This document shows positions 1 through 27,836 of a DNA stretch of 39,584 nucleotides, piece by piece. Below the pieces are notes generated by a model that was given only the letters and a program-made list of their open reading frames with translations, ran no database searches and was not told the origin of the DNA. Origin of the DNA: Candidatus Poseidoniales archaeon (GTDB lineage: Archaea; Thermoplasmatota; Poseidoniia; Poseidoniales; Poseidoniaceae); NCBI GenBank assembly GCA_009887095.1, contig QXYC01000017.1:1-39584 (forward strand). Direction: 5' to 3'. Both the position numbers and the translations under genes were made by a program. Position 1 is the stretch's first letter. Each line of letters starts with the position of its first letter.

Positions 1-472
1 CCATTGCTGTGCCCGTTGCACCAATGACTTGTGGCATGAAACCGATGTTGAGTTGGTTGATTTGAACATCACAAGGAACAACGGTGTCGACTGAGCACGC
101 ATAGGAAGTGTTCTCGTGGTAGGTAATCTCGCCAGAAGTGGCGTTGTGTTCCATTAGATGGCGGTCAGAGGTGATGGTGTAAGTGACTGGGCCAACCTGA
201 TCGTAGATTGGTTCGTCACCAGCAAGAACCCCACCGAGGTTGGTGATGTTCCATGCGTAGAAATCACGGTCCGTACTGGAACTTGCCCAGTCGGCTTCGA
301 TTTCTGTGCAGTCGTCGTTTGAACAGATAGCATCCTTTGGCGCTTCTGCTGTGGCTTCTGCAACTGCATCAGGCACGGCGCCTGTGGCAATTGGGGCGAT
401 TAGGGCTAGGTTCAATATGAGGAACATAAGACCTGCCCCGAGCATTGCTTTATCCGATTTTAATATCGACAT
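1..472 (-). CDS. Membrane-anchored protein with CD36/LIMP-2-like ectodomain (5' part only)
   Basis: The gene runs off the left edge, so only the first 157 residues are visible. An N-terminal hydrophobic helix (about residues 9-32) is followed by an Ala/Glu-rich linker and an extracellular region. Residues 69-98 read RDFYAWNITNLGGVLAG, then DEPIYDQVGPVTY. This follows the CD36/SCARB/LIMP-2 signature order: aromatic-rich W/F-N-[IV]-T-N, 'xLxGxxP', then 'GPxxY'. Residues 113-120 (SGEITYHE) fit the next CD36 strand, and residues 139-150 (NQLNIGFMPQVI) fit the Asn-Leu/Ile segment that follows. CD36 proteins are lipid or lipoprotein receptors with a helix at each end; the second helix would lie outside the window. 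ATG 472 is preceded by a TATA-like element about 26 bases upstream, which fits a leaderless message. The family match is from memory of the motif, and the function in an archaeon is unknown. Confidence 0.7.
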   Translation of the reverse strand, partial: MSILKSDKAMLGAGLMFLILNLALIAPIATGAVPDAVAEATAEAPKDAICSNDDCTEIEADWASSSTDRDFYAWNITNLGGVLAGDEPIYDQVGPVTYTITSDRHLMEHNATSGEITYHENTSYACSVDTVVPCDVQINQLNIGFMPQVIGATGTAM

Positions 473-609: not shown

Positions 610-1974
610 ATGGCCGAGGGGGGAGACGAACGCATCGACCTCCCCGGCTGGCCCGGCCATGTATGGCTTGAAGGGCGCACCCTTGTCCACATGCAAGAGG
701 AACAGGAACGTCCAACTCACATGCCAAGAGGGCCTGCCAAACGCACAGGGCCTGGTTTTCTCAATCCAGCAATGGCCCCGGCTCGGACGCGCAGTGTGAT
801 GTTGTTAGCGGACGCACTTGAGCACGACTGGTTAGTCAAGGCCGATCGCCCCATTCGTGCACTCGATGCATTGTGCGCAACAGGTGTTCGCATTCGACGT
901 TGGCGAAATGAAATTCCCGGGCCGCTTCAGCAGCGACTGCGCATCACGGCCAACGACTTGGACGAATTCGCACTCGCATGGGCCGCAACATCTCATGAAC
1001 TTCATCCACCTTCGACGCCAGTTGAACACGAGGCCGAAGACGATCGTCACGGTCAGAAATCCTCTGCGGTGTTCGACAACGGACTCCACTTTCAACGCCT
1101 TGATGCCCGAATGGCCATGGTTGATGCCGCCTATCAATGGGTGGATTTGGATCCGTTTGGCTCACCCATTCAATTCCTTGATGCCGCTTTGCAGAGTCTT
1201 TCGCGCACTGGGGTGCTGGAGGTGACGGCCACAGATACCGCTGCACTGACTGGATCTTCAGCCTCGAGTCAGGCACGACGTTATCAGGCCAAAGGAATCG
1301 TTGATGAGTACGCTCATGACGATGCAGTGAGGTTGTTGGTGGGGACTGTTGCCACAACCGCTGCAAGGCTCGACAAGGTTGTCACCCCCCTTCTTGCATT
1401 GTTCGATGGCCATCATGTTCGAATTTCTTTGCTGGTCAGAACAAGCAAATCAGAAGCCACTGCGATTGGCAAATCGATTGGATGGCGAGTAAGAACGGAG
1501 GGGGTCCCCTATCAATTCGTTCAGCATCCTACACCTGAGCAATTGCCAAATGCGAGTGGTCCGTTGTGGATTGGACCATTGTGGCACAAGGACATCGCAG
1601 GCCGAATGACAGAGGCGCGCGCCTTGGAATTGTGTTCACCGAGCGCTGAGGAAATCACAGAATATCAGAAAGCTGGCTTGGTATGGGGTGACGATGACAT
1701 CGAATACTCGGGTCGGGAATTACGAAGAAGCGTGCGGTACATCGCACAAGCTGCCGACCTCATGAGCAGGGAGCATTTGCTGCTCAACCTCGATGCGTTG
1801 CCCCGTTTAGCTGGCGTGGGAGGGGCGCCGAAAATGGATAAACTGCTCGAATCGCTCGCTGAAATGGGCCACGCTTCCGCACGCTATCCGGATTTGGAAC
1901 CAATGCTTGTGACCGATGCACCGTTTGACGATGTAATTCAAGCGGTGAAGAACGCTCGTGATTCAACCGACTGA
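610..1974 (+). CDS. trm1: tRNA (guanine(26)-N(2))-dimethyltransferase Trm1
   Basis: Trm1 uses S-adenosylmethionine to make N2,N2-dimethylguanosine at position 26 of tRNA. From ATG 610 the protein has 454 residues, somewhat longer than typical archaeal Trm1 (about 380). Visible family motifs are GFLNPAMAPARTRS (49-62, equivalent to the 'FYNPxMxxNRD' block), the SAM-binding ALDALCATGVRIRRW (84-98), DLDPFGSP (179-186) and LEVTATDTAALTGS (203-216). The C-terminal half holds the conserved 'RxLxxTVATTAARLDK' region and the tRNA-binding domain. An upstream in-frame TTG at 538 would add 24 residues with no resemblance to the family, so ATG 610 is preferred; no strong ribosome-binding site decides it. 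The 3' end overlaps the convergent PAC2 gene by 12 bases. Family identity is firm. Confidence 0.93.
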   Translation: MAEGGDERIDLPGWPGHVWLEGRTLVHMQEEQERPTHMPRGPAKRTGPGFLNPAMAPARTRSVMLLADALEHDWLVKADRPIRALDALCATGVRIRRWRNEIPGPLQQRLRITANDLDEFALAWAATSHELHPPSTPVEHEAEDDRHGQKSSAVFDNGLHFQRLDARMAMVDAAYQWVDLDPFGSPIQFLDAALQSLSRTGVLEVTATDTAALTGSSASSQARRYQAKGIVDEYAHDDAVRLLVGTVATTAARLDKVVTPLLALFDGHHVRISLLVRTSKSEATAIGKSIGWRVRTEGVPYQFVQHPTPEQLPNASGPLWIGPLWHKDIAGRMTEARALELCSPSAEEITEYQKAGLVWGDDDIEYSGRELRRSVRYIAQAADLMSREHLLLNLDALPRLAGVGGAPKMDKLLESLAEMGHASARYPDLEPMLVTDAPFDDVIQAVKNARDSTD

Positions 1975-2724
1975 AGGGTCGCGTGATGGATCGTCCAACA
2001 CATCAATTTCAGGACCGGGGAGCATTGTCCTTGAATTTTCAATGACTTCTTGGACGCTCGATTCGATGGTCTGTGCGTTTTCAAGGAGTTCGGTCAGCGG
2101 AATTTCAATGCCTGTCAACTCGCCAATCGCTTCCACAGCAAGAGCCGCTGCACGAGCATCGGGGTAAAGCGGGCTGGCTTCTGCAAGAAGGGCGGTGACA
2201 TCGATGCCAAGTCGGTCGCCTTCGCCGAGTAAGAAACCTGTAATTCCGGCCACAATGCCTTGTTGAATTGGTTCGATTCCGGAATTACGAAGTCGAGCAC
2301 GGGCTGCTTCGGATGAGCCGACACCAAACAATTGACCTGTGGTCACATCTCCAGATGCAACCAATCCATCGATAATGATCAGGCGATCAAAACTGCCCTT
2401 CGTGAACCATTCCAGCACCGTTGATGCGAACATGATGTCTTGTTCATTCTTGAACTGAATTTCAGAAGTAAAGACACCGATGCCGTCGCCTTGATAGACA
2501 CGCACGGGGTGTTTTGGAACCTCGTTGTGGATGAGTGCGACCGCAGGGAACTCCGCATTGAGAACTGTCCCGAGCTGCCGCATTTTGAGAGTCTTGATGA
2601 TGTGTGAGGCAGCGATGACACCAACCATTCCAGCTGTCGTAAACCCTGCGATGGCAACACCGCCAGTTCGTGGATCTGCACCGTCTTGCAAAACAAGTGC
2701 GTACCCCTTGAACTCATGCTCCAT
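1963..2724 (-). CDS. PAC2-family protein (proteasome assembly chaperone-like, DUF75)
   Basis: The protein has 253 residues. It starts with the PAC2 pattern: a strand pair, then GFTTAGMVGVIAASHII and an alternating alpha/beta core (AVALIHNEVPKHPVRVY, RLIIIDGLVAS), ending in the hallmark region GITGFLLGEGDRLGIDVTALLAEASP, then YPDARAAALAVEAI. Archaeal and eukaryotic PAC2 proteins assist assembly of, or activate, the 20S proteasome; some archaeal members have other, uncharacterised roles. GGAGG lies 8 bases before ATG 2724, so the start is secure. It follows the large surface-protein gene on the same strand after 57 bases, with a TATA-like stretch in the gap, so it may have its own promoter. A second PAC2 paralogue lies at 14790-15584. 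The C-terminus (RDPSVG) lacks a hydrophobic-Tyr-X ending. Confidence 0.87.
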   Translation of the reverse strand: MEHEFKGYALVLQDGADPRTGGVAIAGFTTAGMVGVIAASHIIKTLKMRQLGTVLNAEFPAVALIHNEVPKHPVRVYQGDGIGVFTSEIQFKNEQDIMFASTVLEWFTKGSFDRLIIIDGLVASGDVTTGQLFGVGSSEAARARLRNSGIEPIQQGIVAGITGFLLGEGDRLGIDVTALLAEASPLYPDARAAALAVEAIGELTGIEIPLTELLENAQTIESSVQEVIENSRTMLPGPEIDVLDDPSRDPSVG

Positions 2725-2781
2725 GAAACGGCCTCCGTTCTGGGGGTGACAATGGCTCTATGAAAAGACCTACGATGGGGT

Positions 2782-5700
2782 TTAGTCTTCCCAAACAGCC
2801 CAGTCTTCCCAGCCTTCTTCTCGGTACCACCAAACGCCTTCTTCATCTTCCCACCACTCAGTGCCATTTTCATCGACACTGATGCCGTCGTCATCTTCGC
2901 CTTCCTCGCTTGTTTCTTCGTCTTCGAGTGCTTCCTCAAGGTCTTCGACTTCCGTCTCGTCATAGGACTCGACTGTGTTGTTGTCGAATTCATCGAAGAG
3001 GCTGGGCCGATGATCTTTCGGACCTTCGATGTCGTCCAGTGACCGTCCTTCATTGTGCAATTGATCGAGTGACTTACTGGTTGGTTTGGTTGGTTTTTCG
3101 ATGATTTCGGGTTCAACATCATCAATTGATTCTGCATACCAATCGTCTTCTTCATCGTCAGACTTTCGCAGCAGGATGACACCTGCGCCACCTGCGATGA
3201 GCGCAAGGATGCCAATGATGCTTCCAATGATGAGTGGGGCATTGCTCTTGGTGCCATCTGAATCGGTGTCGACTGGGGTGTCAACTTCCGGTGCTTCGCC
3301 AAGCGTCCATTGCAATTCACCTTCAGTGCTTGCTGTGGGCGTGGTCATGGAGTCACACTGATTGGCTCCGCCGAGTTCCGAGCATGAGAAGAAAACAACG
3401 TAGCCCACACCCTGAATTCCTGGGAACAAACCATCGGATGGCCCATTGCGAACCGGCGAGAATTCCACTTGGACTGAGCCCTCCGCAGAAATGGTGATGA
3501 TTGGCGCACTGCCCACACCAAAAGGCGCCTCAAAGGTGACTGGCGGAGGGGTTGTTGGCGTCACTTTCCAAGAAAACCCGAGGAACACATCAAACGGATT
3601 CGGATTGGTGATGGTACACATGATGGGGGCATCGGTGCCATCGTCAATCCAAGGGTAGGTCGCTGTCCCACAATCAACAGCGCCTGGTAGTGTGGCGTCT
3701 GGGAATGTGGGCTCTTGTGTGGTGTTGGTGTCGTTCGTACCGTTGCCACCTGTGGTTTGATTGGAGCCCGTATCTGGGCCACCGGTGAAGGTGAACATGA
3801 GTGGGTTCATTGAAGGGACAATCCATGATTTTGATGCATCGGAAGTGAGGACAAGTGTGTCGGTCGCATTGGCCGTTCCCGAGAGGATGATTTGCCCACC
3901 TTTGACTTCCACATCGCCTGTGCTGGTGACATTACCGCTCGCATCCTTTTGTTCCCATGTGTATACAAGGCCCTCAAGGTATGTGTTCTGAGTTGGCAAT
4001 TCAGCAACAATGTTCACTTCGAGGTCGAAGACGCCCTCGTCGTCAAGATTGAGTTGGGTCCCCTGCGTGGTAATGTCTGCTCGCAGGAGCCCAAGACCTT
4101 GGAGGGTCAAGTTCGCGGGTCCAACCGGTTGCATGGTTGGCGATCCGGTCGTGCCGAGGTATTCGATCGTCATCGAGGCGCTGTCAAAGAAGGTGATGAA
4201 CGTCCCGCCAAGTTCGGTCAGGTCTTCTGCTTCGATGGCTTGCCACACTCCTGATGAGTCGGTCGTTCCAGAGAGTTCAACATCGACCCCTGATGCCTCA
4301 ATGGTGAGGCTTACGAGTTCCCCTTCAAGGGGCACACCGTCTGCAGTCAACGTGATGTTGAGGTGCAGGGAATCGAGCGCGCTCAGGCCAAAACCACCAT
4401 CATCGTACGTACTTGAGGTCGAAAGATCGTACTCGATCAAGGCCGTGCGTTGGGAATTGTTGAGAGAGATCACGGGTCCGAGGGCGCTGAACGAAGTGGT
4501 TGCGTTTCCGTACTCATCGAACGCAACAACTGCAGCATAGTAATCTGTGCCGTCGATGATTGTGAGGCCTTCATCAACCGTTGAAAGAACCATGATTTGG
4601 TTTTCAGTCGAGTGTTCAATGGTGGCAATCGGTTGCAATACGTCAATTTCTTCAATGGCTTGGGTTTCGAGGTAGACCCCGTATTCAACAGCGCCATCAA
4701 TGGAAATATTCCAAGAAAGATCGAGCGAACCCCCCTCATCACCAGGGGTGTCAACGAAATTGAAACCTGCCACTGCGGCCGGGGGGGCCGGGAAAGGAAC
4801 GGTGACCGTTAGAGGGGCAGACATGTTGCTCGTCACGCCATAGGAATGCAGCGAGCGAACGCCGTAGACATACGAAGTTCCATGGTCAACTTCGCCATCA
4901 ACCGTCGTATTGGCGCCTGATGTTGTGTAAGGGGAGGTCAAGTCAAACGAAACACCGGGTGCTGCCCTAAACACTTCGAATTCAATCAAGTCATCACCGA
5001 ATTCAATCATGTCTTGCCATTCGAGTTGAACACGATCTGAAGTTAACTCTGTCACAGAAACGACAGGGGTTGGGGGCAGCGAAATGTTCGGCGCACCGGG
5101 GCTGTATTGAGCAACCAGTCCGGACACGGAAAAGACGCCAGAGAGTGTTGAATTCACTGGAAGAGTGACAACAAAGTTACCAACACCTGCCGTTTGTTGT
5201 TGGTTGATGATGTTGGTCAGGTTTCCTGCCGAAAACGGATTGTTTTCAACAATGAAGTCTGCATCGTAGCCGATGTCCATCGAAGAGAGGTTGAAGGTCC
5301 CATCAGCCGTGTTTGTGAAAGCAAAGCTGACGCTGGAGAGACGCACGCCATAGCCATCTGCGTTGTATGGCAACGCATTCATCAGCGGCGAGAGTCTTGA
5401 GGTCATGTTGCCCAATGGGTCGAGGATGTACAGTGGTTCCATGCCGTACGCTGCATCACCTGCATAGCCTTCGACACCAAGGTCATCCTGGCCATCATCA
5501 TCAATGTCCATTGTCACATGTTGCCAGCTGGCGATGAACAATCCGCTGGAAAGTTCACCTGCAGCCACGATGTGTTCAACAACGCCATCACCGTTCATGT
5601 CGATTGCTTTGACATTGGTTGGAATGGACCATGGTTGGACCACGGAGGTGCTCACCCCCACTGCGGTTGAGTTGAGAGCGTACGCTGTGAGGTTCCCCTC

Positions 5701-7053
5701 CACCGTCAGTGCGCTTCCATCGCTTGATCCGCCGAAAGGCACAACGAGCGAAGCAAGCCCGTCGCCATCGTGATCAAACACAGAGGCATTGTTCAGTTGA
5801 ACGGTTGTTAGGTGGTCTGTAGTGTTCCACTGCGAGCCATCGTTTTGAGCGACCGTGTAGCCCAGTTGATTGCTACCAATGAAATCGATATCGCCGTCGC
5901 CGTCGATATCTCCTGCAATTATATCCGATTCAAGACCATCGAAGTGGTTCGGGTTTTCGCTGATGCCGCTCCCGTTGGTCCACCCAAGCGGGGTGCTGTG
6001 CCCAAACAGGTCGGTTACAACCACTGAGAAGACTGTTGAGTTTGCAGCAAAGTGTCCTGATACCATCGAAACAAGCGTGGTAGGGTTCGCGCTGTTGTTC
6101 ATGTTCACAGATTGCGTGAGATTGGCTGCAAAACTGCTTGTCTTGCTGTTGTAAGTGCGCAGAGCAAACGTGCCGCCTGTGTGAATTGAGACGAGGTCGG
6201 CATAACCGTCCAAATCGAAATCACCGACAGAGGCTGAGATGCTGTTGCTGTAAAGAGAAATGCCTTGTGCTGCGCCAATTGCCCCTGTTGAGGCGTTCAT
6301 AATGTGCACACATGCAAGATCAGAGCCATAGGCAAAGGCAACCAAATCATCATGGCCGTCACCATTGAAATCGCCCGTAGCAACCTCAGAAGATCCGGCG
6401 CATGTTTGAACCCATGAAGAGGTGTTCAATCCAGCGTTCGACGTCCAATCGACAATCATGAGGGCGGAGTTGAAACTTGTAGTGGCGGAATCGCTCGAAA
6501 GCACCACCACCTCGGGCAATGTATCGTTGTCCACGTCCCCTGAGGTGTAGTCGTTCACTGCACCAATTGGTAGCAATCCGCCATTGACATCAGGAGCGAA
6601 GGAGGCGTTCACTTCGGCCGTATCAATCGACGCTCCAAACGGCAAGAAGATTGGCGGGGAACTGACCATACCTGTCGAATGGAAATCGACTGATGTATTG
6701 CCGTTGAAGAAAGAATTCTGATGGCCGAGGTCCCCGTAACCAGACCCTTCGAAGGCCCATTCTTTGACGCCGTCTTGACCAATGTCAATATACACTTGCC
6801 CAGGTGTTGCGACTTCATCTCTAGCGCTTACCAAAAAAGAAGCTGAGTCGAAGGTGACGTTTCTTGGAACTTCGATGCCGAGGGATGTATCGACCTGCCC
6901 CCCCGTCAAGGTGAGCGTCGGGCTAGCTTGTCCACCGTCAAAGGTACTCACAGTGCCGCTTGTCGGATTTGCAGCAGCCGGCATGAGTGCAACTGTTTGG
7001 AGGAGAAGGAGGAGAACGAGCAAGAATGAGCCTGTGCGGTTCGGGTGTTCCAT
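2782..7053 (-). CDS. Large secreted, C-terminally anchored surface protein with FG-GAP and fibronectin-like domains
   Basis: The protein has 1423 residues from ATG 7053; a GTG at 7062 is a possible start three codons earlier. A signal peptide (LLVLLLLLQTVALMPAAA) is followed by several FG-GAP/VCBS calcium-binding repeats, such as GDFNGDGHDDLVAFAYG, GDFDLDGYADLVSIHTG, GDIDGDGDIDFIGS and IDMNGDGVVEHIVAAG. These probably fold as a beta-propeller. Two or more fibronectin type III-like modules follow (start PTPVVSVTELTSDRVQLEWQ), then beta-sandwich regions and a Cys-containing module. A single membrane helix (about 1272-1295) leads to a 128-residue, very acidic cytoplasmic tail ending in a Trp-rich stretch (WWEDEEGVWWYREEGW and AVWED). 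The role is probably adhesion or binding of polymers or cells. A TATA-like GTATAC on the minus strand at about 7113 could be the promoter. The domain calls are secure in type; the ligand is unknown. Confidence 0.9.
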   Translation of the reverse strand: MEHPNRTGSFLLVLLLLLQTVALMPAAANPTSGTVSTFDGGQASPTLTLTGGQVDTSLGIEVPRNVTFDSASFLVSARDEVATPGQVYIDIGQDGVKEWAFEGSGYGDLGHQNSFFNGNTSVDFHSTGMVSSPPIFLPFGASIDTAEVNASFAPDVNGGLLPIGAVNDYTSGDVDNDTLPEVVVLSSDSATTSFNSALMIVDWTSNAGLNTSSWVQTCAGSSEVATGDFNGDGHDDLVAFAYGSDLACVHIMNASTGAIGAAQGISLYSNSISASVGDFDLDGYADLVSIHTGGTFALRTYNSKTSSFAANLTQSVNMNNSANPTTLVSMVSGHFAANSTVFSVVVTDLFGHSTPLGWTNGSGISENPNHFDGLESDIIAGDIDGDGDIDFIGSNQLGYTVAQNDGSQWNTTDHLTTVQLNNASVFDHDGDGLASLVVPFGGSSDGSALTVEGNLTAYALNSTAVGVSTSVVQPWSIPTNVKAIDMNGDGVVEHIVAAGELSSGLFIASWQHVTMDIDDDGQDDLGVEGYAGDAAYGMEPLYILDPLGNMTSRLSPLMNALPYNADGYGVRLSSVSFAFTNTADGTFNLSSMDIGYDADFIVENNPFSAGNLTNIINQQQTAGVGNFVVTLPVNSTLSGVFSVSGLVAQYSPGAPNISLPPTPVVSVTELTSDRVQLEWQDMIEFGDDLIEFEVFRAAPGVSFDLTSPYTTSGANTTVDGEVDHGTSYVYGVRSLHSYGVTSNMSAPLTVTVPFPAPPAAVAGFNFVDTPGDEGGSLDLSWNISIDGAVEYGVYLETQAIEEIDVLQPIATIEHSTENQIMVLSTVDEGLTIIDGTDYYAAVVAFDEYGNATTSFSALGPVISLNNSQRTALIEYDLSTSSTYDDGGFGLSALDSLHLNITLTADGVPLEGELVSLTIEASGVDVELSGTTDSSGVWQAIEAEDLTELGGTFITFFDSASMTIEYLGTTGSPTMQPVGPANLTLQGLGLLRADITTQGTQLNLDDEGVFDLEVNIVAELPTQNTYLEGLVYTWEQKDASGNVTSTGDVEVKGGQIILSGTANATDTLVLTSDASKSWIVPSMNPLMFTFTGGPDTGSNQTTGGNGTNDTNTTQEPTFPDATLPGAVDCGTATYPWIDDGTDAPIMCTITNPNPFDVFLGFSWKVTPTTPPPVTFEAPFGVGSAPIITISAEGSVQVEFSPVRNGPSDGLFPGIQGVGYVVFFSCSELGGANQCDSMTTPTASTEGELQWTLGEAPEVDTPVDTDSDGTKSNAPLIIGSIIGILALIAGGAGVILLRKSDDEEDDWYAESIDDVEPEIIEKPTKPTSKSLDQLHNEGRSLDDIEGPKDHRPSLFDEFDNNTVESYDETEVEDLEEALEDEETSEEGEDDDGISVDENGTEWWEDEEGVWWYREEGWEDWAVWED

Positions 7054-7129
7054 GGTGTTCACGATGTGACTGTGGGTGGACGCCCTTCAAGTTCCTTACG
7101 GCGAAGTTGGAGAGTATACGGGAAAAAGC

Positions 7130-10545: not shown

Positions 10546-10971
10546 TCACTCGAACGTGACTTTTTGCGTTGTTTTCCAATTCGCAGTGGCAAGTTTCTTC
10601 GCTTTTCCGTCTGCAATGATGGGATGGATTGTTTTCAGTTCGCCGTGCATGCCACGAACTTGGAACTTGACCCTCAGTTCTGCGGCTTCGTCTCGAACGA
10701 CGGCTTCCAATTGCTCTTCATCCAAATCGATGCTTGCAAGCGTCGATCCGTCGGTGATGCTTGAGATTGTGAAGGTCTTTCCAGAAACAGAAAGTGTGGG
10801 CCTGAAGTCCATGTCGTTTGGATGATTCATCCACACTGAAACATCGACGGACAGGGAATCTCGGATGTTGACTCGGCTGATTTCGACAGTATCGACCATG
10901 GCAATCAACTCATCGGAAGGGTCTGGTATTGATACGCCTTTCCATTCAGCAAAGTGGTCACTCGTAGGCAA
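10546..10971 (-). CDS. Hypothetical beta-rich protein downstream of the PKD lipoprotein
   Basis: The longest reading gives 141 residues from a TTG at 10971, overlapping the end of the lipoprotein gene by 14 bases. ATG 10899 would give 117 residues beginning MVDTVEISRVNIRDSLSV, and neither start has a clear ribosome-binding site. The sequence alternates short strands (SVDVSVWM, FRPTLSVSG, LRVKFQVRGMHG, KLATANWKTTQKVTFE), suggesting a beta-sandwich. It has no signal peptide or membrane helix. Function unknown; the overlap with the lipoprotein gene suggests co-expression. Confidence 0.7.
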   Translation of the reverse strand: MPTSDHFAEWKGVSIPDPSDELIAMVDTVEISRVNIRDSLSVDVSVWMNHPNDMDFRPTLSVSGKTFTISSITDGSTLASIDLDEEQLEAVVRDEAAELRVKFQVRGMHGELKTIHPIIADGKAKKLATANWKTTQKVTFE

Positions 10972-12142
10972 TTTCTACAAGTTGTGGGACATGAATCTTG
11001 ACCACAACAGTCAACGTCCAATCGTTGCCTGGATCGGGATCGGGTGCCCCTGCGAAGAGTGGGTCAGGATCTGCTTGTTGTGCAACAACCGTCCACACCC
11101 AGTCTCCTTGGCCTGAACGGGCACTCGGATTTGAAAGTAAAAATTCCATGAGTTCCTCTGCCGAGTCTGAATCAAAAATGCCATCCTCTCCAAATCCATT
11201 CAATCCGTCGTCTGCTACGGTTGCAGTAGCCGATTCGTTTGAGGTGATGTTCTCGCCTGCCGTTTGTTCAGTGCGCTTGTAATTGTCATCGACGATGTAC
11301 AGATTGAGGGTGAAGTTGTCTTGGGGGGCAATCACGTCTTGAGCGAGGGTAAGGACGCCCTCGTAATCGAGAACCCTGCCTTGAACACCGGGTGTAATGT
11401 TGCCTTGCCATTCCTCGCCTTGGTCAAGGTACTCATCCCAGGAGTATTCAACCTCCACTGTTTCCCAAGTCACTTCATAGCGACGCGTCATGATTTCAAG
11501 CTTGAACACTTCTTGGGCGGTTGCGCCGTTCCCATCATCCAAAAAGATGCTTCCAGTGATGGTTCCTGAGGTGTTTGTCGGCACCAACACTGTGTCTGTT
11601 GTCGCATCGACATCATTGCGTGGGTCGCCATCGTTATCACTGTCTTCGCTCCAATCAAGATCCCACTCAAACATGAGGTCCTTTCCTTCTGGATCATAAC
11701 TTTCACTGGCGTCGAGCAGAGCGGAATCACCTGAACGAATCGATTCGGGGAACGTGAGATTCAGCTGCGGGGCTCCGTTCACAAAGATGATCGTGGTGAT
11801 GTCGTCGGTGCCGCCTTGGTCGTTCGTAATGGTCAATTGAGCGTTAAAGACACCGAACGAGGCGTATGTGTGTGATGTAAATCCAGAGATTGTTTCAGAG
11901 ACTTGCCCGTCTCCGAAGTCCCATTTGTACGTGGTAATGACGCCTTCAACCGCATCGGAATTGCGAGCATCAAACGTTACCGTTTCTCCTTCTTGGATTT
12001 GGAGGGGGTAGGCGTTGAGTGAGGCACGTGGTGCGACCGTTGTGTCCAAAACACCTGTGCAACCTGCAAGTGATGTGGTTGCCATCACGAGGGCCACGAG
12101 CATCACGAAACCAACCCGATAGGGTCCTTGTGTGCTCGACAT
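10958..12142 (-). CDS. Secreted lipoprotein with PKD domains
   Basis: The protein has 394 residues from ATG 12142, chosen because the signal peptide follows directly: a hydrophobic core FVMLVALVMATTSLAG and then Cys in the lipobox SLAGC. The upstream extension of the frame to 12268 lacks signal-like character. The first PKD domain carries the hallmark YKWDFGDG (about 40 residues after the lipobox Cys) and ends in a HTYASFGVFNAQLTITN strand. A second PKD-like module holds LDASESYDPEGKDLMFEWDLDW and an Asp-rich calcium-site-like stretch (DSDNDGDPRNDVD). The C-terminal third is beta-rich and unassigned. It is probably exposed on the cell surface by a lipid anchor, with an adhesion or binding role. 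It is divergent from the exonuclease gene. Confidence 0.87.
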   Translation of the reverse strand: MSSTQGPYRVGFVMLVALVMATTSLAGCTGVLDTTVAPRASLNAYPLQIQEGETVTFDARNSDAVEGVITTYKWDFGDGQVSETISGFTSHTYASFGVFNAQLTITNDQGGTDDITTIIFVNGAPQLNLTFPESIRSGDSALLDASESYDPEGKDLMFEWDLDWSEDSDNDGDPRNDVDATTDTVLVPTNTSGTITGSIFLDDGNGATAQEVFKLEIMTRRYEVTWETVEVEYSWDEYLDQGEEWQGNITPGVQGRVLDYEGVLTLAQDVIAPQDNFTLNLYIVDDNYKRTEQTAGENITSNESATATVADDGLNGFGEDGIFDSDSAEELMEFLLSNPSARSGQGDWVWTVVAQQADPDPLFAGAPDPDPGNDWTLTVVVKIHVPQLVEIAYE

Positions 12143-12328
12143 AAGTGAGAGGAATCGCCCGCCCTTTCTAACGCTTGGGGGGGTTAGCATAACCTGCATC
12201 GAGGTTCGATGGAGATTCAAGGACCGCCATACATGATCAAAAAGGGATTCTTCAAGCAGATTAATCACCGCAAATCACATCATTTGGCTACGGTGATGTT
12301 GAAAGAGGGACAGCGATGTCGACCTGCC

Positions 12329-17264: not shown

Positions 17265-19793
17265 TCAGTTCCTCCTTTCCAAGAAAAGTAGGCTCAGTGA
17301 ACCAACACCGATGAGCAACAGAACAAAGCCAAGAATTGAACCGCTGAGGCCACCTTCAGAGGAAGTGGAGTCGGTGGTTGCTGGGACTTGGACGGTCACA
17401 GTCGACGAGGCACCCTCCTGCAGTGCAACACCATCGATAATTGGCCGAATGGTATAGACGGTGTCACCGGATGTAAGTGGGGTGTCGGCATAGTGTAGGT
17501 CAGTGACTGAATCAATAACGATGCCGTTTCGCTCGATGCTAAAGTTCGCATTTGGTCCATCGTATGCCCATGTGAGATCGACCAATTGACCCTTCAACGA
17601 CCAATCCAGCTCTTGGATGGTGGGGCCTTGCACTGGCGTAAACGAGAAGGTCGTCGATGCTTGGTCGCCTGAATCATCCTGAACCGTGAGTTGAACCGTT
17701 GTAATCGTCGTTGGAGCGAAGGTTGCTGTGGCGCCTGTGGCGGTTCCACTACCCCCTGCTGTGTCTGCCCAAGACCATGCGAATGTGACGATTCGCCCGT
17801 CGGTGTCAGTGGAATCGCTTCCATCGAGCGTGAGGATCTCACCAATCCAAATGGTGGGCGTTGGATTCGTAATGATTGCCGTGGGGGCGAGGTTCAGAAT
17901 CGTGACCGTTTGGAGAACTGGCGAGGAGGAGGCTTCACCATCGTGGGCAACGACTTCTGCTGACCACAGTTGACCGGGGCCAAGCAAGGCAACCGGTACT
18001 GATGTTTGATTGGCCAGTGAGGCCTCGAGGAATCCGTTTCTGTACCAATGAACAGAATACGTGACTGCATCATCGTCTGCGTCAGTGGTGCTGATGACGG
18101 CGTTCAATTCGTTGAGGCTCGAAGCATCATCGTTCAACTCAACGGATGCCGAAGGTGCCGAGTTGACGATTGAAATCGTTGCTGTGAGCGTGTTATCACT
18201 GAGGTCCACGCCGTCGTTTGCTCGCACTTGTACCGTCCATTGCTCGCCTTTCGAAGTCTGTTCTGAAGGGAGGTTGAGGCTTTGATCAAGGGCGGAAATG
18301 CGCACACCATCTTTGAGCCAAACCACATTCGGAGCAACCGGTGCGTCGCCATCGATGTCGGTTTGTGTGATGGAAATGGTTGCGCTTTCCAAGGTGGTGA
18401 GGCTCGTGTGTGATGCCTCGATAGAGGTTGCTTCGGGAGCTGTGTTTCCAATGGTGATCGGACTTGTCGTAGCCCATGAAGACCATGCGTTGCCATCGCT
18501 CACTCGAACGCGGGCTGACCAAGTTTGGCCTTTTTCGGTTGAGGTTGACGGTACATCCGTTCCTTGGTAAACGGTGTCCAGTACGCCATTTCGGTACCAC
18601 TCAATTTCTTGGCGGACTTCCGCATCGTTGTCTGCATCAGCATACACATACGTGACAGAAAGAGCATCGGTGGTCGTTGGCGTAAGCGGAGAAATGTCAA
18701 CCGTGACGACCTCAGGCGGTGTGTTCTGCTCCACGCTTCCGATTTGCACTGTTTGAGCTGCTTGCCATGCCGAGGTCGCTTCGCCGTCGTCCACGCGAAC
18801 TTCCATGGACCAGTTTTCACCATTCCTAGTTGCATAGGAAGGGACTGTTTGGCTGTTATCAAGATCGGAAATAACCGAGCCTTCGAGCAACCAGCGCGTC
18901 TCGTAGGTGAGGATGTCTTGATCTGCATCAGAGGCGCTCGCGCTGTAGGAAAGATTGTCATCTGATTCAGGGGAGCTCGGCTGAATAGTTGGCGAGCCAA
19001 CCGTAGGAATCGTATTGGCAATCACGAGCGTGTTGCTTGTGACGCTCGTACCGGCATCCGACCCATCCGAAGGCGTCACAACAGCGTACCATTCCTGATT
19101 TTTAGCAGTCAGTGACGACGCTGCTGTTGTGCCAGCGTTCGTGATCTGAACGCCGTCCCTGAACCAATCGATTGTCGTTCCAGATTCTGGGTCGTTGTCT
19201 GCGTCATTGTACGTGTACGAGAGGCTCAGTGTCGAGGCGGTGGTTGCTCCGTTTGGACCGAGGAGGAGGTTGCTGGCCGTCGGCGCGGTGTTCGGCGCAG
19301 CGCCTGCTTCGGGTACCTGATAGGTCGCTGTTGCCCAGCGGTCGCCGTTGTAGTTCGTGCTGCCATCGGCAGTAAGGCCTGCCACCGAAAGGGTTGCTTG
19401 GCCGGTACCAGCAGATGGTGCTGTCCAGTCCACGCTCCAACTTCGCTGGTTGCTGCCGGTGATGGAGTGGGTTGCACTTGTCCCAGCACTGTTGACATTG
19501 ACTGAAAAGGTGGGCCCGGTAGAGAGGGAACCATGACTGATCTCGAGGCTAAAGCCGCCCTCGGTACCAGAAACGCCTCCCGTAGCAGAGATGGTCAATG
19601 TGTATGTTGAGCCTGGAGTATAGGAAGCGGGGTGGCCACTGATGGATACGGTGGCCGCGGTTGACCCACTTTGTGAATGGCATGTGCAGCCTGAACTTTG
19701 GCTGTACTTGCCACCGGAATTTCCTTCAGTCAATGGAACGACTGAGAGCAGGAGAAGGGTCACGAGCAAAACGGGAACTCGTACCGAACGCAT
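17265..19793 (-). CDS. Large surface protein: choice-of-anchor-V/Reeler-like domain plus Ig/PKD-like repeats
   Basis: The protein has 842 residues from ATG 19793, which opens directly into a signal peptide (VPVLLVTLLLLSVVPLTEG). The frame stays open to 20015 but that part overlaps ligA and looks non-coding. Residues 34-40 (SGCTCHS) are followed by VSISGHPASYTPGSTYTLTI and GFSLEISHGSL. This is the pattern of the choice-of-anchor-V/Reeler domain: a Cys-x-Cys-His or CxxCH site, 'YxPGxxYTLTV', then 'GFxLE'. About five Ig-like repeats follow, each starting NTAPTAS..., NTIPTVGS... or NTPPEVV... and holding 'DADxD' and 'WYRNG' or 'WFRDG'. Then come a PKD domain (LTLDGSDSTDTDGRIVTFAWSW) and a fibronectin-like module. 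A C-terminal helix (ILGFVLLLIGVGSLSLLFL) and ERRN end the protein. It heads the operon with the next two genes. Confidence 0.85.
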   Translation of the reverse strand: MRSVRVPVLLVTLLLLSVVPLTEGNSGGKYSQSSGCTCHSQSGSTAATVSISGHPASYTPGSTYTLTISATGGVSGTEGGFSLEISHGSLSTGPTFSVNVNSAGTSATHSITGSNQRSWSVDWTAPSAGTGQATLSVAGLTADGSTNYNGDRWATATYQVPEAGAAPNTAPTASNLLLGPNGATTASTLSLSYTYNDADNDPESGTTIDWFRDGVQITNAGTTAASSLTAKNQEWYAVVTPSDGSDAGTSVTSNTLVIANTIPTVGSPTIQPSSPESDDNLSYSASASDADQDILTYETRWLLEGSVISDLDNSQTVPSYATRNGENWSMEVRVDDGEATSAWQAAQTVQIGSVEQNTPPEVVTVDISPLTPTTTDALSVTYVYADADNDAEVRQEIEWYRNGVLDTVYQGTDVPSTSTEKGQTWSARVRVSDGNAWSSWATTSPITIGNTAPEATSIEASHTSLTTLESATISITQTDIDGDAPVAPNVVWLKDGVRISALDQSLNLPSEQTSKGEQWTVQVRANDGVDLSDNTLTATISIVNSAPSASVELNDDASSLNELNAVISTTDADDDAVTYSVHWYRNGFLEASLANQTSVPVALLGPGQLWSAEVVAHDGEASSSPVLQTVTILNLAPTAIITNPTPTIWIGEILTLDGSDSTDTDGRIVTFAWSWADTAGGSGTATGATATFAPTTITTVQLTVQDDSGDQASTTFSFTPVQGPTIQELDWSLKGQLVDLTWAYDGPNANFSIERNGIVIDSVTDLHYADTPLTSGDTVYTIRPIIDGVALQEGASSTVTVQVPATTDSTSSEGGLSGSILGFVLLLIGVGSLSLLFLERRN

Positions 19794-19867
19794 GGATTTT
19801 GCTGTGCCGTGGCCTATGAGAGTGTTTTGGTTGGATGATTGAACAAACGAGGCTTTCGACACCCGTC

Positions 19868-22036
19868 TTAGAAGTCCGTTAACGAGGCTTGCTGGGTGCC
19901 CACGGTTGCCGACGGCGGGGCCGGTTCCGGAGGCGAGGGCGGCGCTAATTGCTCGGGCTGGCCAGAAGGTATTGGCCCTGCTGCGCATGCTCGAAGAAGG
20001 TCTTCTTCGTTCCAAATCGTGATCCCTAATTGCTCCGCCTTTGCCCGTTTTGAGCCTGCCTTTTCGCCAGCGACAAGAACGTCGAGTTGTGAGGAGACGC
20101 TGCCGACGACTTTGCCGCCTGCGGCTTTAATCGAGAGTTGTACTTCCTTTCGTGGACGTTGAAGAGAGCCGGTGAGGCACAGGGTCATACCAGCCAAAGG
20201 CCCGCCTTGCTCAGGTTTTGGCTCGTCGAGCACTTCAATCAGCGATGCTAAGTCGAGGATCATCCCCTTTCTGTTCAGCAAACCGTCGCGAACGAGAATT
20301 GCAACTTTACTTCCAATGCCGTCAACCTCGCACAACGCTCGAATGGCTTGATTTTCTGTGTAGGGTTTGCCTTTTTCGTTGAGGGTCGGGCCAAATTCTG
20401 CTGAATCTGGTTCCGCCATTGCATCTTCTGCCCATTTCATGATTGCATCAAGCGTTGTGAATCGCTGTGCGACTGAGGTAGCAAGTTCGGGACCAATGCC
20501 TGAAAGACCCATGGCGTGAAGGAAGCGTCCGAGTTTGAGAGAGGTTGTCTTCGAGAGTTCGTTGAGGACATTAAGCGCTGATTTTTCGCCCATCCGCTCG
20601 ATGTTTTCCAATTCTGCTTGTTGGAGACGATACAGGTCTGGAATGGTTTGAATCAAATCCAAGTGGAGCAATTGGTCGACTAACTTCTCCCCGATGCCGT
20701 CCATTTCGAGGCTTCGGCACCAATAGAGAATTGCGCGACTTGTACGGGCGTCACACATCATGTTGGTGCATCGGATGAACGCTCCATCGGCCTCGAGCGA
20801 TGCTTCGCATGCTGGGCATTGGTTCGGCACCGCAATCGCTGTTTTTTGAGGCATCTCTTCTGTGAAAGGAGTCCCATCTGCATGGCTACGGTTGTTGAGA
20901 TCTTCTAGCGAACCGGGGCCAAGGCTTGCCTCAATTTTGGGAATGACGTCACCACGACGAACAATCAACACACGGTCGCCTATCTTGACACCGAGGCGTT
21001 CAACTTCACCCACATTGTGCAGTGTAGTGTGTTCAACCGTTACGCCGCCCACCGACTGGGGTGCGATCCTCGCAACGGGGGTGACGGCCCCTGTTCGCCC
21101 CGTTTGCCAAGTCACATCGAGAAGAATCGAGGTTGCTTCCTCGGGCGGGAATTTCCATGCTAATGCCCAACGTGGATGATGTGCTGTTGATCCGAGCCGT
21201 TCGCGTTGAGCCAAATCGTCCAACTTGAACACAATACCGTCGATCTCAAACTCATAGTTAGGGCGTTTCGTGCTCCATTCAAGCGTGTAATCGATCATAT
21301 CTTGTTGAATGGTTGAAGATTCGAAAACCTGCCACGGAGCAGGTTTGATTCCAATTGAATCCTTCAAGAATTCGAGCAATTCGCTATCGTATTGCACATC
21401 GGGGGAATCGGATACGAATTTGACATCGTACGCACAAAACACGAGGTCAGAAGCGCTGGCTTTCCCGTCCCCATGTTTCTGCCGGAGCGCACCAGAACAG
21501 AGGTTTCTCGGGTTTGGTGAGATGTGCTTGTACTTTTTTTCAAACACGTCCAATGGCATGACGACTTCGCCACGAACATGGCAATTGACTGGCAAGTTCA
21601 GGCGCGTTGGTATGTTCGCCACTTGCTTTGCATTCAGCGTCACATCTTCACCGCGCTCGCCACTTCCGCGTGTCGCAGCCCGGTGCAAGTTTCCCGCAAC
21701 GTACTCAAGCGATAGAGCCGAGCCGTCGAGTTTCGGTTGAGCAAGGTACCGAGTGCCACCGAATGTGGACTGGTTGACAAAGTGGAGAATGTCTTCATCG
21801 GTCGTTCCTTTGTCAAGGGAACGCATTGGAAATTGGTGCTCGATCTTGACCGTTCCCGGCAAGGGTTCTGGCCCAACTTCGTGAAGCACTGCGTGGTCGG
21901 GATCCAATTGCTTGAGCTCATCCCACAACGCATCGAAATCGGCGTCTGAGATTTCTGGGGAGGCTTGATTGTAGTACAATTCTCGATGGTACCGGACCGC
22001 CTCGGCCAGTTGTCGAACGCGCTCCTCCCCGGCCAT
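19868..22036 (-). CDS. ligA: NAD+-dependent DNA ligase LigA with C-terminal PIP-box-like tail
   Basis: The protein has 722 residues from ATG 22036; a TTG at 22042 precedes it. LigA seals nicks using NAD+. All the usual parts are present in order. Domain Ia has YHRELYYNQASPEISDADFD. The adenylation domain has the nucleophile Lys102 in AQPKLDGSAL and the RGSGERGEDVTLN motif. An OB fold (VTPVARIAPQSVGGVTVEHTTL) and a four-Cys zinc finger (CPACEASLEADGAFIRCTNMMC) follow. Then come helix-hairpin-helix repeats and a BRCT domain (GMTLCLTGSLQRPRKEV). A Pro-rich tail of about 30 residues ends in QASLTDF, the very C-terminus, which matches the PCNA-interacting Q-x-x-L-x-x-F motif. The family is bacterial and was probably acquired by transfer. 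It lies upstream of the three-gene surface operon with a 74-base gap. Confidence 0.97.
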   Translation of the reverse strand: MAGEERVRQLAEAVRYHRELYYNQASPEISDADFDALWDELKQLDPDHAVLHEVGPEPLPGTVKIEHQFPMRSLDKGTTDEDILHFVNQSTFGGTRYLAQPKLDGSALSLEYVAGNLHRAATRGSGERGEDVTLNAKQVANIPTRLNLPVNCHVRGEVVMPLDVFEKKYKHISPNPRNLCSGALRQKHGDGKASASDLVFCAYDVKFVSDSPDVQYDSELLEFLKDSIGIKPAPWQVFESSTIQQDMIDYTLEWSTKRPNYEFEIDGIVFKLDDLAQRERLGSTAHHPRWALAWKFPPEEATSILLDVTWQTGRTGAVTPVARIAPQSVGGVTVEHTTLHNVGEVERLGVKIGDRVLIVRRGDVIPKIEASLGPGSLEDLNNRSHADGTPFTEEMPQKTAIAVPNQCPACEASLEADGAFIRCTNMMCDARTSRAILYWCRSLEMDGIGEKLVDQLLHLDLIQTIPDLYRLQQAELENIERMGEKSALNVLNELSKTTSLKLGRFLHAMGLSGIGPELATSVAQRFTTLDAIMKWAEDAMAEPDSAEFGPTLNEKGKPYTENQAIRALCEVDGIGSKVAILVRDGLLNRKGMILDLASLIEVLDEPKPEQGGPLAGMTLCLTGSLQRPRKEVQLSIKAAGGKVVGSVSSQLDVLVAGEKAGSKRAKAEQLGITIWNEEDLLRACAAGPIPSGQPEQLAPPSPPEPAPPSATVGTQQASLTDF

Positions 22037-22067
22037 GTTCAATCACCGAAGCCAGAGGATATGAACA

Positions 22068-23111: not shown

Positions 23112-26100
23112 TCAAAGGTGGGTGAGGTCAATCTCGCCAAGGTCATCGCCGCCACCCTTGCGCATGCGAACCAAGAACAGAACAACGGCCACAGCAATCA
23201 AAGCGATGAGCAGAAGTGTCCCTGTTTCAAAGTCGTCTGTGTCCTCAACGGTTGTTCCTTCCATGGTATCAGGGATACCGTCGTTATCATCGTCTTGATC
23301 TGCAAAAAGCCAAGTTGTCATGCCGTCTGGGCAATTGACGTCATCCGGTTGCCCGTCGCCGTCCGTATCAATTGAAGCGCAAGCGTCCAAAGGATAGTCG
23401 TCCCGTGCATCCGGTACACCATCGTTGTCATCGTCGGTGTCTTCTTGATCTGGCCCACATGGATAGCCAATAGCGCTGTTGAACCACACATTGGTTTGTT
23501 GCGTGTAGGTGCATGAAGGAGTCCAGTCGCCGTCTGTGTCGAGTTGGGTGATTTCAAAATCCACTGCGTCGGAGGTTGAAGCGCCCAACGCATCGGTCAC
23601 CTTTGCTTCGAGGACATAAAATCCGTATGGAAGGTCGGTGATGTTGTACTGTGCTTCATTTGGCCCGCGTAGGACTTCTTCACCGGATGCATCGGTAATG
23701 ATCCATTCAATGGTGAGTTCATCGATTGAATCAAGGTCATCGCTGTAGGTCACTTGAGCATTCAACGGGGTGGTTTCCATGACCCTTTGACCTGAATACG
23801 GCGTTGTGATTTCAACGATGGGAGCGCCGTTGAGAGCCATGAGGATCACGATCGAGGTATTCATGCCTTCCGTGTAATTGACGGTTAAGGTCTGGATTGG
23901 AAGCCCTGGTGCCGTAGCTTGTAGGTTTACCGAAGTCAATGTGGTCGTCGAAGACTCATCTGCAATGATGATTGGGAGTTCAACCAAGACAGAAGTGCCT
24001 TCGACCTGTGTCGAATGTCCCGAAGTGTGACCTGTCGTTCCAATCGCAAAGATCACCTCAATCGGTACGCCGTTGACTTGAGCATCGAAGTTGAAGGTGG
24101 TCCACATGTGAATTGCTGCGCCATCGTATGCTGATGTCTGAGTCGCCATGACGTCCACAAGGTTGACGACGATCGCACCTGAAGCCGCCACCTCTCCTAT
24201 GATTGAGCCGCCTTCAATCCGAGCCGAATAATGGTCTGCAGAAAGCACAACTGATGCCAAGATATCGGGGGAACGGAACACAACTGGGGCGATGGACCCG
24301 TCGTCAACATCTGCGTGCAAATCAATCGCAACAGCGTAGTTTGCAGCACTCAGGCCTTCGACGATGAGGCTATCCATGGTGCGACCATGGTGGCTTGAAA
24401 AGGCGGTTCCTGTGCCTTCACCGTTCAAAATGAGGCCGTCAATAATTCCAGCTGTTTCATCAAAGTCGACAGCGGGTGCGCCCGACACTTGAATGGTGTT
24501 CAAATCGATAAAGCGATTGTTGATTCCTGCAAGGCCGCCCATTGACCCAACGGTTCCATTCAAATCGGACACTGTAAAGCCTCCATCAATGGATTCCAGC
24601 CAGCCAACGTAGCCGCTTCCATTGAACGCAGTTGCATCGATGTTGTTCATGGAACCGGTCACGGCTGTGACTTCAAATCCATGCGTCATTTCTCCGCTGA
24701 AGGAAAGGCCATCAACATCCACAACGGATTGACGAGCCCACAATCCAACGCCATTGCAATTGACAAGGGAGACATCTGAAAGGATGAGGGTTCCTTCGGT
24801 AGCGATGGTATTGATGCACCCGCTTCCGGCATCATAGAGAGTGCTGTCGGTGAGTTCGACCGTTGCGTTGCTACCGCTTGTAATGACAATCAGTGGGTCG
24901 GCGCCAGAGGAGCGTGCAAGTTCAGTTCCAGCTGCGCTCAGTTGACCGAATTGGGAGACGGTCAAAGCGGGTGAGGCTTCCAGCACCGATGAGGCTGAGA
25001 GATCAATCGTTGAGGAAGTCAGGGAGCCAAGGTGCAACCCACCCCAGCGAGCGCCTTGACCAGTAGAAGAAAGTGTAGCATCGCCAACATCCATAGCGCC
25101 GTCCACGGTGATTGTGCGGCCTTCTGAGATTCGCACAGATACACCGTCATCGATGCTCAGTGTTCCTGTTTGGCTGACGGTGAGGTCGGCATCGAGGAAG
25201 TAAGGGCTCCATTGTGATTCCAAGATTAGCCACTCATCGAGCGAGCCGCCAGTAATTCTTGAAGCCATGAAGGTGTGATCCAGAGAGGTTGACGAATCCC
25301 AGGTGACAAAGTCTGTAAACGAGCCAATTTGAAGATTGACGTTCTTGATTCCGCCAGTTGTTTCACTGCTGTCTGTGACTTCACGAGCCGTAGCAGTGGT
25401 GCTTAGGCGGCCTTGGTCGTCTGTTGAAGCAACCGAGCCGTCCACGGAAATGAGCGCACCGGCAACCGGTTCGCCTTGGTCAAGAACCCTGATGTTAAGT
25501 TCCGAGAGGACATTCAGCGACGCTCCTGTGAGCGCCGTGACTGTTCCCGAAATCGAGCCTGCCACGAGGTCATATTCGCAACCGGGTTGTAAGACAAGGT
25601 TGCCGTTGATGTGAACACGTTCAGAAGTTCGAAGGCTCTGACAAGCCCATGATACGTTTCCTATGACGTCGAATCCGTCTTCACTGTTTGACGACAACAT
25701 GCTGTCAAAGCCCATTGAGAAACGATGTGCGGCAATCGTCGAAGCATCGCCCATCAGTTGAGCGCTGCCTTGGACACTCACCAAGCCGTCTGTAGGAAGA
25801 AGGAGGGTCGTGCTGTCGAGTTGGAGGCCGCTACCGGTTTCAAGGGTTAAATCGCCAGTGAGGACGTGGGGGCTGCCGTCAGGGCGGGCGCCGAGATAGA
25901 CAACTTGACCGCTCGTGATGGTCCAGTCGCCCTGAGGAATCACCGGAACTTGAACAGACTGGCCCATGCTTCCCCCGTAGAGGGTGACCCTCACGCCGGC
26001 ACCGCCAAGACTGACGTCGACAATGCTGCCTTGGGATTTGAGGGGCAGTGTCGCTGCGCCATTGGTGTTGCTTTGTAAGATGAAGCCGTGAACGGCAATG

Positions 26101-27806: not shown

Positions 27807-27828
27807 GGTCCAATCTTCGCATGCCTTC

Positions 27829-27836
27829 CATATCAA
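27829..27836 (-). promoter_or_regulatory. Box A (TATA-like) element of the beta-helix protein gene
   Basis: On the minus strand TTGATATG is centred about 26 bases before ATG 27806, consistent with leaderless transcription. It lies between tRNA-Pro and the gene. Confidence 0.5.

Follow-up and report, generated by a model that had tools for sequence, protein, structure and literature searches.

A very probable CD36-family member with a large predicted apex insert in Poseidoniales (Marine Group II) archaea

The stretch of DNA analysed here (the window) is the whole of a 39,584-nucleotide contig (QXYC01000017.1, hereafter C9) of assembly GCA_009887095.1, from a Candidatus Poseidoniales archaeon. 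Its subject is a gene that lies on the minus strand, leaves the contig at its end and resembles those of the CD36 (SCARB/LIMP-2) receptors, fat-handling proteins of animals and protists. A preliminary description, made from the sequence alone, had proposed that a CD36/LIMP-2-like ectodomain is encoded there. The complement of positions 2 to 472 reads as 157 amino acids from an ATG start with no stop up to the window edge, and the single N-terminal helix and the motifs WNITN, VLAGDEPIYDQVGPVTY, SGEITYHE and NQLNIGFMPQVIGA that had been pointed out were all present in this translation, in the order given. The features of the gene within the window are as follows.

2..472, minus strand: CD36-like gene, first 157 codons; start codon at 472..470, truncated by the contig end
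389..445, minus strand: N-terminal transmembrane helix, residues 10-28, by hydropathy (helix 5-32 in the model of an 81%-identical relative)
35..283, minus strand: match to PF01130 (CD36), profile positions 45-133, residues 64-146, including W-N-x-T-N and G-P-x-x-Y
1..55, no strand assigned: exact 55-nucleotide overlap with the end of contig C24, through which the gene runs on

The other 746 codons of the gene were found on contig C24 of the same assembly (locus L047, 11826-14120, minus strand). When the fragment was searched against the window's own genome, its residues 140-157 gave a 100% match at the extreme end of C24, and the final 55 bases of C24 (29119 bases) are identical to the first 55 of the window. 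Joining C9 and C24 produces a single 903-codon frame and a protein of 903 residues, 81% identical to that of an unbroken relative on a 253-kb contig (L050, whose protein is identical to that of L067 from isolate ANT-70). Relatives of the tRNA methyltransferase on the window side occur in 13 of 53 loci of the family, and the same 13 have relatives of the AIR-synthase-like gene of the C24 side on the other flank. The join was taken to be correct because of the overlap, the identity to the unbroken relative and the matching gene order in the 13 other loci. In the joined protein, hydropathy placed hydrophobic helices at residues 10-28 and 854-872 only, the latter being the second, C-terminal helix that the preliminary description had anticipated. 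A terminal helix at each end was found in 44 of the 46 full-length relatives described below, and an additional internal stretch in 2/46.

Relatives were taken from the best 80 of 130 loci. Open reading frames cut by a contig end or shorter than 700 amino acids were skipped, eight rows were set aside for want of a start or of the start motif, for a run of N or as a fusion, and 47 proteins whose two ends could be used were obtained, several of their starts having been moved by hand to a later in-frame ATG. Exclusion of L130 (unknown residue) left 46 proteins, the set A3, which is nearer to the window's protein than the second set used below, A5 (17 members).

A PF01130 profile search of the window's genome returned the fragment at 35.5 bits (E 4.4e-9; curated cut-off 26.5), and hmmscan of the fragment against 24736 Pfam families gave CD36 (35.4 bits, E 5.9e-9) as the sole family at E <= 1. 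This profile was the check suggested in the preliminary description; the fragment exceeds its cut-off (35.4 vs 26.5 bits), and full-length relatives also match, with hits in 46/46 A3 proteins (E <= 0.1) and 17/17 A5 proteins (E <= 1). PF01130 had no match in 14 control genomes, which made up the search beyond the sample of the phylum Thermoplasmatota, and none of 18 members was matched by NCBIfam at E <= 0.01. Since the Pfam model lies above its cut-off, public databases may already carry a CD36 label for the gene.

A profile built from 18 archaeal proteins and compared with the PDB sequences retrieved eight distinct sequences at E <= 10 (best E 1.7e-8), each of them LIMP-2 or CD36, and a profile of another subgroup retrieved seven, all LIMP-2 (best E 5.8e-4). 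The best two matches of the first profile run through three stretches of LIMP-2 in the same order (3-115, 130-217 and 349-407), of which only the first is strong (31.1 bits, followed by 5.5 bits for the second and -2.9 and -2.3 for the third); taken alone, the second alignment, which includes ELLWGYKD of LIMP-2, and the third mean little. CD36 similarity spans the ~160 residues at the N-terminus; in some relatives it resumes beyond the middle stretch. When C-terminal halves were searched alone, CD36 was matched by 6 of 17 at E <= 1, over profile positions 142-259, and three of these exceeded the PF01130 cut-off (34.4, 32.9 and 31.5 bits). Judged from these alignments, the similarity is firm for the N-terminal part and extends to the third quarter in some relatives only.

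Two relatives were modelled by AlphaFold2 without templates and the models searched against 350,542 PDB chains. Model 1, of the L067 protein (81% identical to that of the window), had a mean predicted local distance difference test score (pLDDT) of 86.4 and a predicted template modelling score (pTM) of 0.77; model 2, of the distant L142 protein from the other family of the order (36% identical), had a pLDDT of 80.5 and a pTM of 0.71. At E <= 0.001 all matches were CD36 or LIMP-2 (11/11 for model 1 and 12/12 for model 2), which is the outcome foreseen for the fold in the preliminary description, and no viral structure was matched at that threshold. An asymmetric CD36-type beta-barrel is predicted in the models, and its long strands occupy the same places in both.

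Several observations weigh against assignment to the family. Searched alone, the portion of the window's protein that is encoded on C24 has no CD36 match at E <= 1; only one of six C-terminal halves from the window's subgroup matches CD36, at E 0.0059 and below the cut-off; and a profile of 17 C-terminal halves found no match among PDB sequences. The template modelling scores (TM-scores) normalised by PDB chain are just 0.37-0.43 for model 1 and 0.38-0.42 for model 2, with root-mean-square deviations of 5.5-9.6 A. Such modest target-normalised values may be expected because a large insert interrupts the alignment, and by themselves they do not prove a CD36 fold. The alignment held just 46 rows, and the PDB entries on which AlphaFold2 was trained include LIMP-2. 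Within the genus, where the fragment search covered 59 genomes, 49 gave a match and ten did not, for part of which genome incompleteness may account. With these points set against the profile and fold searches, the gene is, with high confidence, an archaeal member of the CD36 (SCARB/LIMP-2) family with two terminal helices, a CD36 barrel and an apex insert of ~370 residues, and the main inference of the preliminary description, that of an archaeal CD36 homologue, is supported by sequence and predicted structure. The likeness it drew stood for family and layout but not for length, which is about twice that of CD36 owing to the large apex insert.

The boundaries of this middle stretch were chosen by hand (residues 186-552 of the window's protein). 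It comprises 367 residues here and 197-405 across the 18 aligned proteins, and is followed by a portion of 351 residues (range 325-416); the window's fragment stops ~30 residues short of it. The insert had no match among PDB sequences at E <= 10 and no Pfam family above chance, two of 17 inserts giving single weak matches (E 0.08 and 0.18). It falls between position ~134 and positions 142-160 of the PF01130 profile. In the available text of a 2023 survey, length variation among eukaryotic CD36 proteins is located in the apex, which recognises ligands (PMC10715195), and by our own reading of the alignments the archaeal insert would occupy the site of this expansion. The ectodomain contains 13 N-glycosylation sequons against 6.7 expected, a number reached in 17 of 2000 shuffles, and the 46 relatives together contain 514 against 348.6 expected. 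A subgroup from genus g9 (L161-L164) has proteins of ~725-756 amino acids, and the insert of g9 member L064, at 197 amino acids, is the shortest among the 18 aligned proteins; this subgroup may be the easiest for structure work.

Across the order, PF01130 was matched in 145 of 193 genomes at E <= 0.001 and above the cut-off in 122/193, and the archaeal profile matched 187 of 243 genomes of the class. In the phylum sample of 292 genomes, 64 matched PF01130 and 73 the archaeal profile, all of them Poseidoniales (Marine Group II, MG-II). Two genera seemingly have no such gene: seven g5 genomes and two g18 genomes gave no match among those listed. A tree of 31 rows was built after leaving out L157 and L163 (unknown residues), L049 (length and unknown residues) and L155, L164 and L166 (unlabelled). 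Separating the order's two families on it took two label changes, one of them due to a family-2 genome that carries a family-1-type copy. Such a pattern would agree with a gene already present in the ancestor of Poseidoniales, followed by duplication, loss and slight exchange. In genus g14 of the other family (L051, L052, L133 and G007:C65) two CD36-like genes lie back to back, one on each strand, and one of the two copies at L052 groups among the copies of the first family. A second copy in the single-contig MG-II assembly (L049, G002:C1:1135609-1138223) is broken into two frames, of 581 and 346 amino acids; as unknown bases lie within it, the break may be due to a gap in the assembly and not to death of the gene. 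A viral origin was considered and rejected, 93 pattern matches in viral contigs having yielded no confirmed case.

Some members of the family also resemble PorA (PF11271), the family of the actinobacterial proteins LmcA and PgfA. Seven of the 17 A5 proteins matched this profile at E <= 1 (best E 8.9e-5), all below the curated cut-off of 29.5 bits; the best score, 22.4 bits, belongs to L161 of genus g9. In A3 it was matched by 2/46 at E <= 0.1 (best 0.023), and there an unrelated family matches as often. Across the 193 genomes, none of which had a PF11271 match above the cut-off, eight matches were found at E <= 0.01, and comparison of coordinates placed all eight inside CD36-like genes; at that E-value chance alone should yield about two matches, scattered anywhere across genomes of 1.1-2.3 million bases. 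The sole control genome to match was that of the actinobacterium Corynebacterium glutamicum, as expected. In the fold searches, LmcA of Mycobacterium smegmatis held ranks 14-17 (E 0.02-0.03) with both models. The structure of LmcA is described as resembling CD36 in the available text of PMC8972800, and PgfA is assigned to transport of trehalose monomycolate in that of PMC9678360. Because all eight PorA matches fall inside CD36-like genes and LmcA resembles CD36 in structure, some archaeal CD36-like proteins appear to tie the two families together at the level of sequence, through a C-terminal similarity that is weak. A possible ancient origin of the CD36 fold, which the preliminary description had also raised, gains some support from this link.

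As to function, we infer uptake of lipids or particles by the CD36-like protein; that lipid uptake is what it actually does is a tentative proposal, the likeliest of the functions considered, which we would put at slightly under an even chance. The large domain between the helices would face outward, and the membrane-distal apex insert would capture a hydrophobic ligand, or dock particles or vesicles that carry lipid in sea water. Through the barrel the lipid would then reach the membrane at its outer face, a route of the kind proposed for fatty acids in CD36, and could from there feed the fatty-acid degradation encoded by these archaea. This degradation is credited to all MG-II genera in the available text of one survey (PMC6461757) and, to some degree, to all MG-II families in that of another (PMC6336850). 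The acyl-CoA dehydrogenase domain PF00441 was present in 193/193 genomes, so that co-occurrence with fatty-acid degradation, tried as a functional test, gave no discrimination and was rejected. Steps of the degradation are missing in several families according to the latter survey as available (PMC6336850), and genera g5 and g18 still carry acyl-CoA dehydrogenase in spite of having no CD36-like gene, which makes the gene dispensable for that pathway. Clustering of the genes beside the 53 loci of the family gave groups found in 13 loci at most; the flanking genes (tRNA methyltransferase, PAC2, AIR-synthase-like, esterase and MCM) likewise speak against the proposal in that none indicates lipid uptake, and operon context was rejected as a clue, the identified flanking genes giving no function.

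Much of the length and variation of these proteins lies in the apex insert (197-405 residues), a region tied to ligand recognition in the available text of PMC10715195, and Poseidoniales are thought to be particle-attached, with flotillin and thrombospondin genes, in that of PMC6461757. Together with the excess of ectodomain sequons (13 vs 6.7 expected), this would suit a CD36-family docking or adhesion receptor, whose insert binds particles, proteins or cells with no passage of lipid and for which LIMP-2, as receptor for a lysosomal enzyme, offers a precedent. We consider such a receptor possible but rather unlikely: the long barrel strands, placed alike in both models, would not be needed by a pure adhesin. 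The ranking of PorA/LmcA as second family, both by sequence and by fold, raises another reading, namely that lipids or lipid-linked precursors belonging to the cell itself are carried outward by the protein, or shifted inside the envelope, as has been proposed for the actinobacterial LmcA and PgfA (PF11271), and that it does not import food. It seems unlikely given that no genome of the 193 has PorA above the cut-off and just 2/46 A3 members match it at E <= 0.1, that LmcA has no counterpart of the apex insert, and that CD36 was always the stronger match in the examined proteins matching both families. Poseidoniales are also not known to have mycobacterial lipoglycans.

Marine protists live alongside these archaea, and the gene could in principle be a contaminant or a recent acquisition from a eukaryote. 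In the literature covered here, CD36 proteins are described from eukaryotes only (PMC10715195). A source of this kind is very improbable and already contradicted by the data: matches extend to 187 of the class's 243 genomes; the gene is present in a single-contig MG-II assembly of 2,064,136 bases (CM001443.1) and on contigs of isolates AG-333-I22, AH-273-O19, AH-273-F07 and AH-287-P07, which we take to be names of single-cell genomes; the 31-member tree splits the two families of the order with two label changes; and the same archaeal flanks stand on both sides in 13 other loci. The matched stretches are short and the TM-scores modest, as they would be if a surface beta-barrel had come to resemble CD36 by convergence, with motifs matching by chance and no shared ancestry. 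That, too, is already largely contradicted, and we give it hardly any weight: in three relatives two separate parts match CD36 in the right order (one of 24736 families), the C-terminal part alone exceeds the cut-off, and the fold search independently puts CD36 first.

Several other genes of the window deserve mention. An NAD-dependent DNA ligase, a type typical of bacteria, is encoded in this archaeon at 19868-22042 (minus strand). Two long minus-strand frames are a 2699-amino acid frame at 30174-38273, in which only a C-terminal DUF4129 was recognised, and a 1574-amino acid frame at 23112-27836, for which Pfam gave nothing at E <= 1e-5. FG-GAP or PKD domains occur in three proteins (2782-7062, 10958-12268 and 17265-20015, all minus strand), which are probably located at the cell surface. 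At another locus of the family (L166, G176:C34:86000-93500), an FG-GAP repeat protein is fused to the later part of a CD36-like protein in a 1729-amino acid frame (open reading frame 1427-6616, minus strand); the CD36-like portion corresponds to positions 302-845 of the archaeal profile, the FG-GAP domain was recognised by Pfam and also occurs in the window gene at 2782..7062, and the fusion reflects either a genomic deletion or a misassembly.

No report of an archaeal CD36 protein was found among the open-licence papers listed, by title and opening of the abstract, a scope outside which subscription journals and database annotation lie. One article naming CD36 alongside many archaea (PMC3927607) was set aside, 'CD36' being a yeast strain name in its available text. 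The 2023 survey, in the text available, traces CD36 proteins to the last eukaryotic common ancestor, sets them beside phagocytosis, and contains neither 'archaea' nor 'prokaryot' (PMC10715195). A widespread archaeal branch would be a possible outgroup for the CD36 family, and provides a sequence link between it and a lipid-trafficking family of bacteria. It also offers a candidate for the surface lipid uptake step in MG-II, a group credited with fatty-acid degradation; in the available text of the two MG-II surveys this step is not named and the word CD36 does not appear (PMC6461757, PMC6336850).

Compared with LmcA and PgfA (PF11271, actinobacteria), the archaeal proteins differ in lying nowhere above the PF11271 cut-off and in their greatly enlarged apex, LmcA having no three-helix apex according to the available text of PMC8972800. 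They differ from CD36 and LIMP-2 in their archaeal host, in length (903 amino acids vs 472 in CD36 chain 5lgd), in the insert of 197-405 residues that matches no Pfam family above chance and no PDB sequence, and in cysteines of their own (C50, C55, C126, C134, C652, C659, C720 and C734, invariant in seven aligned relatives). Shared with CD36 and LIMP-2, their best fold match, are one membrane helix at each terminus, N-terminal strands with the N-x-T-N and G-P-x-x-Y motifs, an expansion at the apex as in eukaryotes and, after the apex, the archaeal motif W-L-x-G-W-x-D (WLfGWhD), which aligns with ELLWGYKD of LIMP-2.
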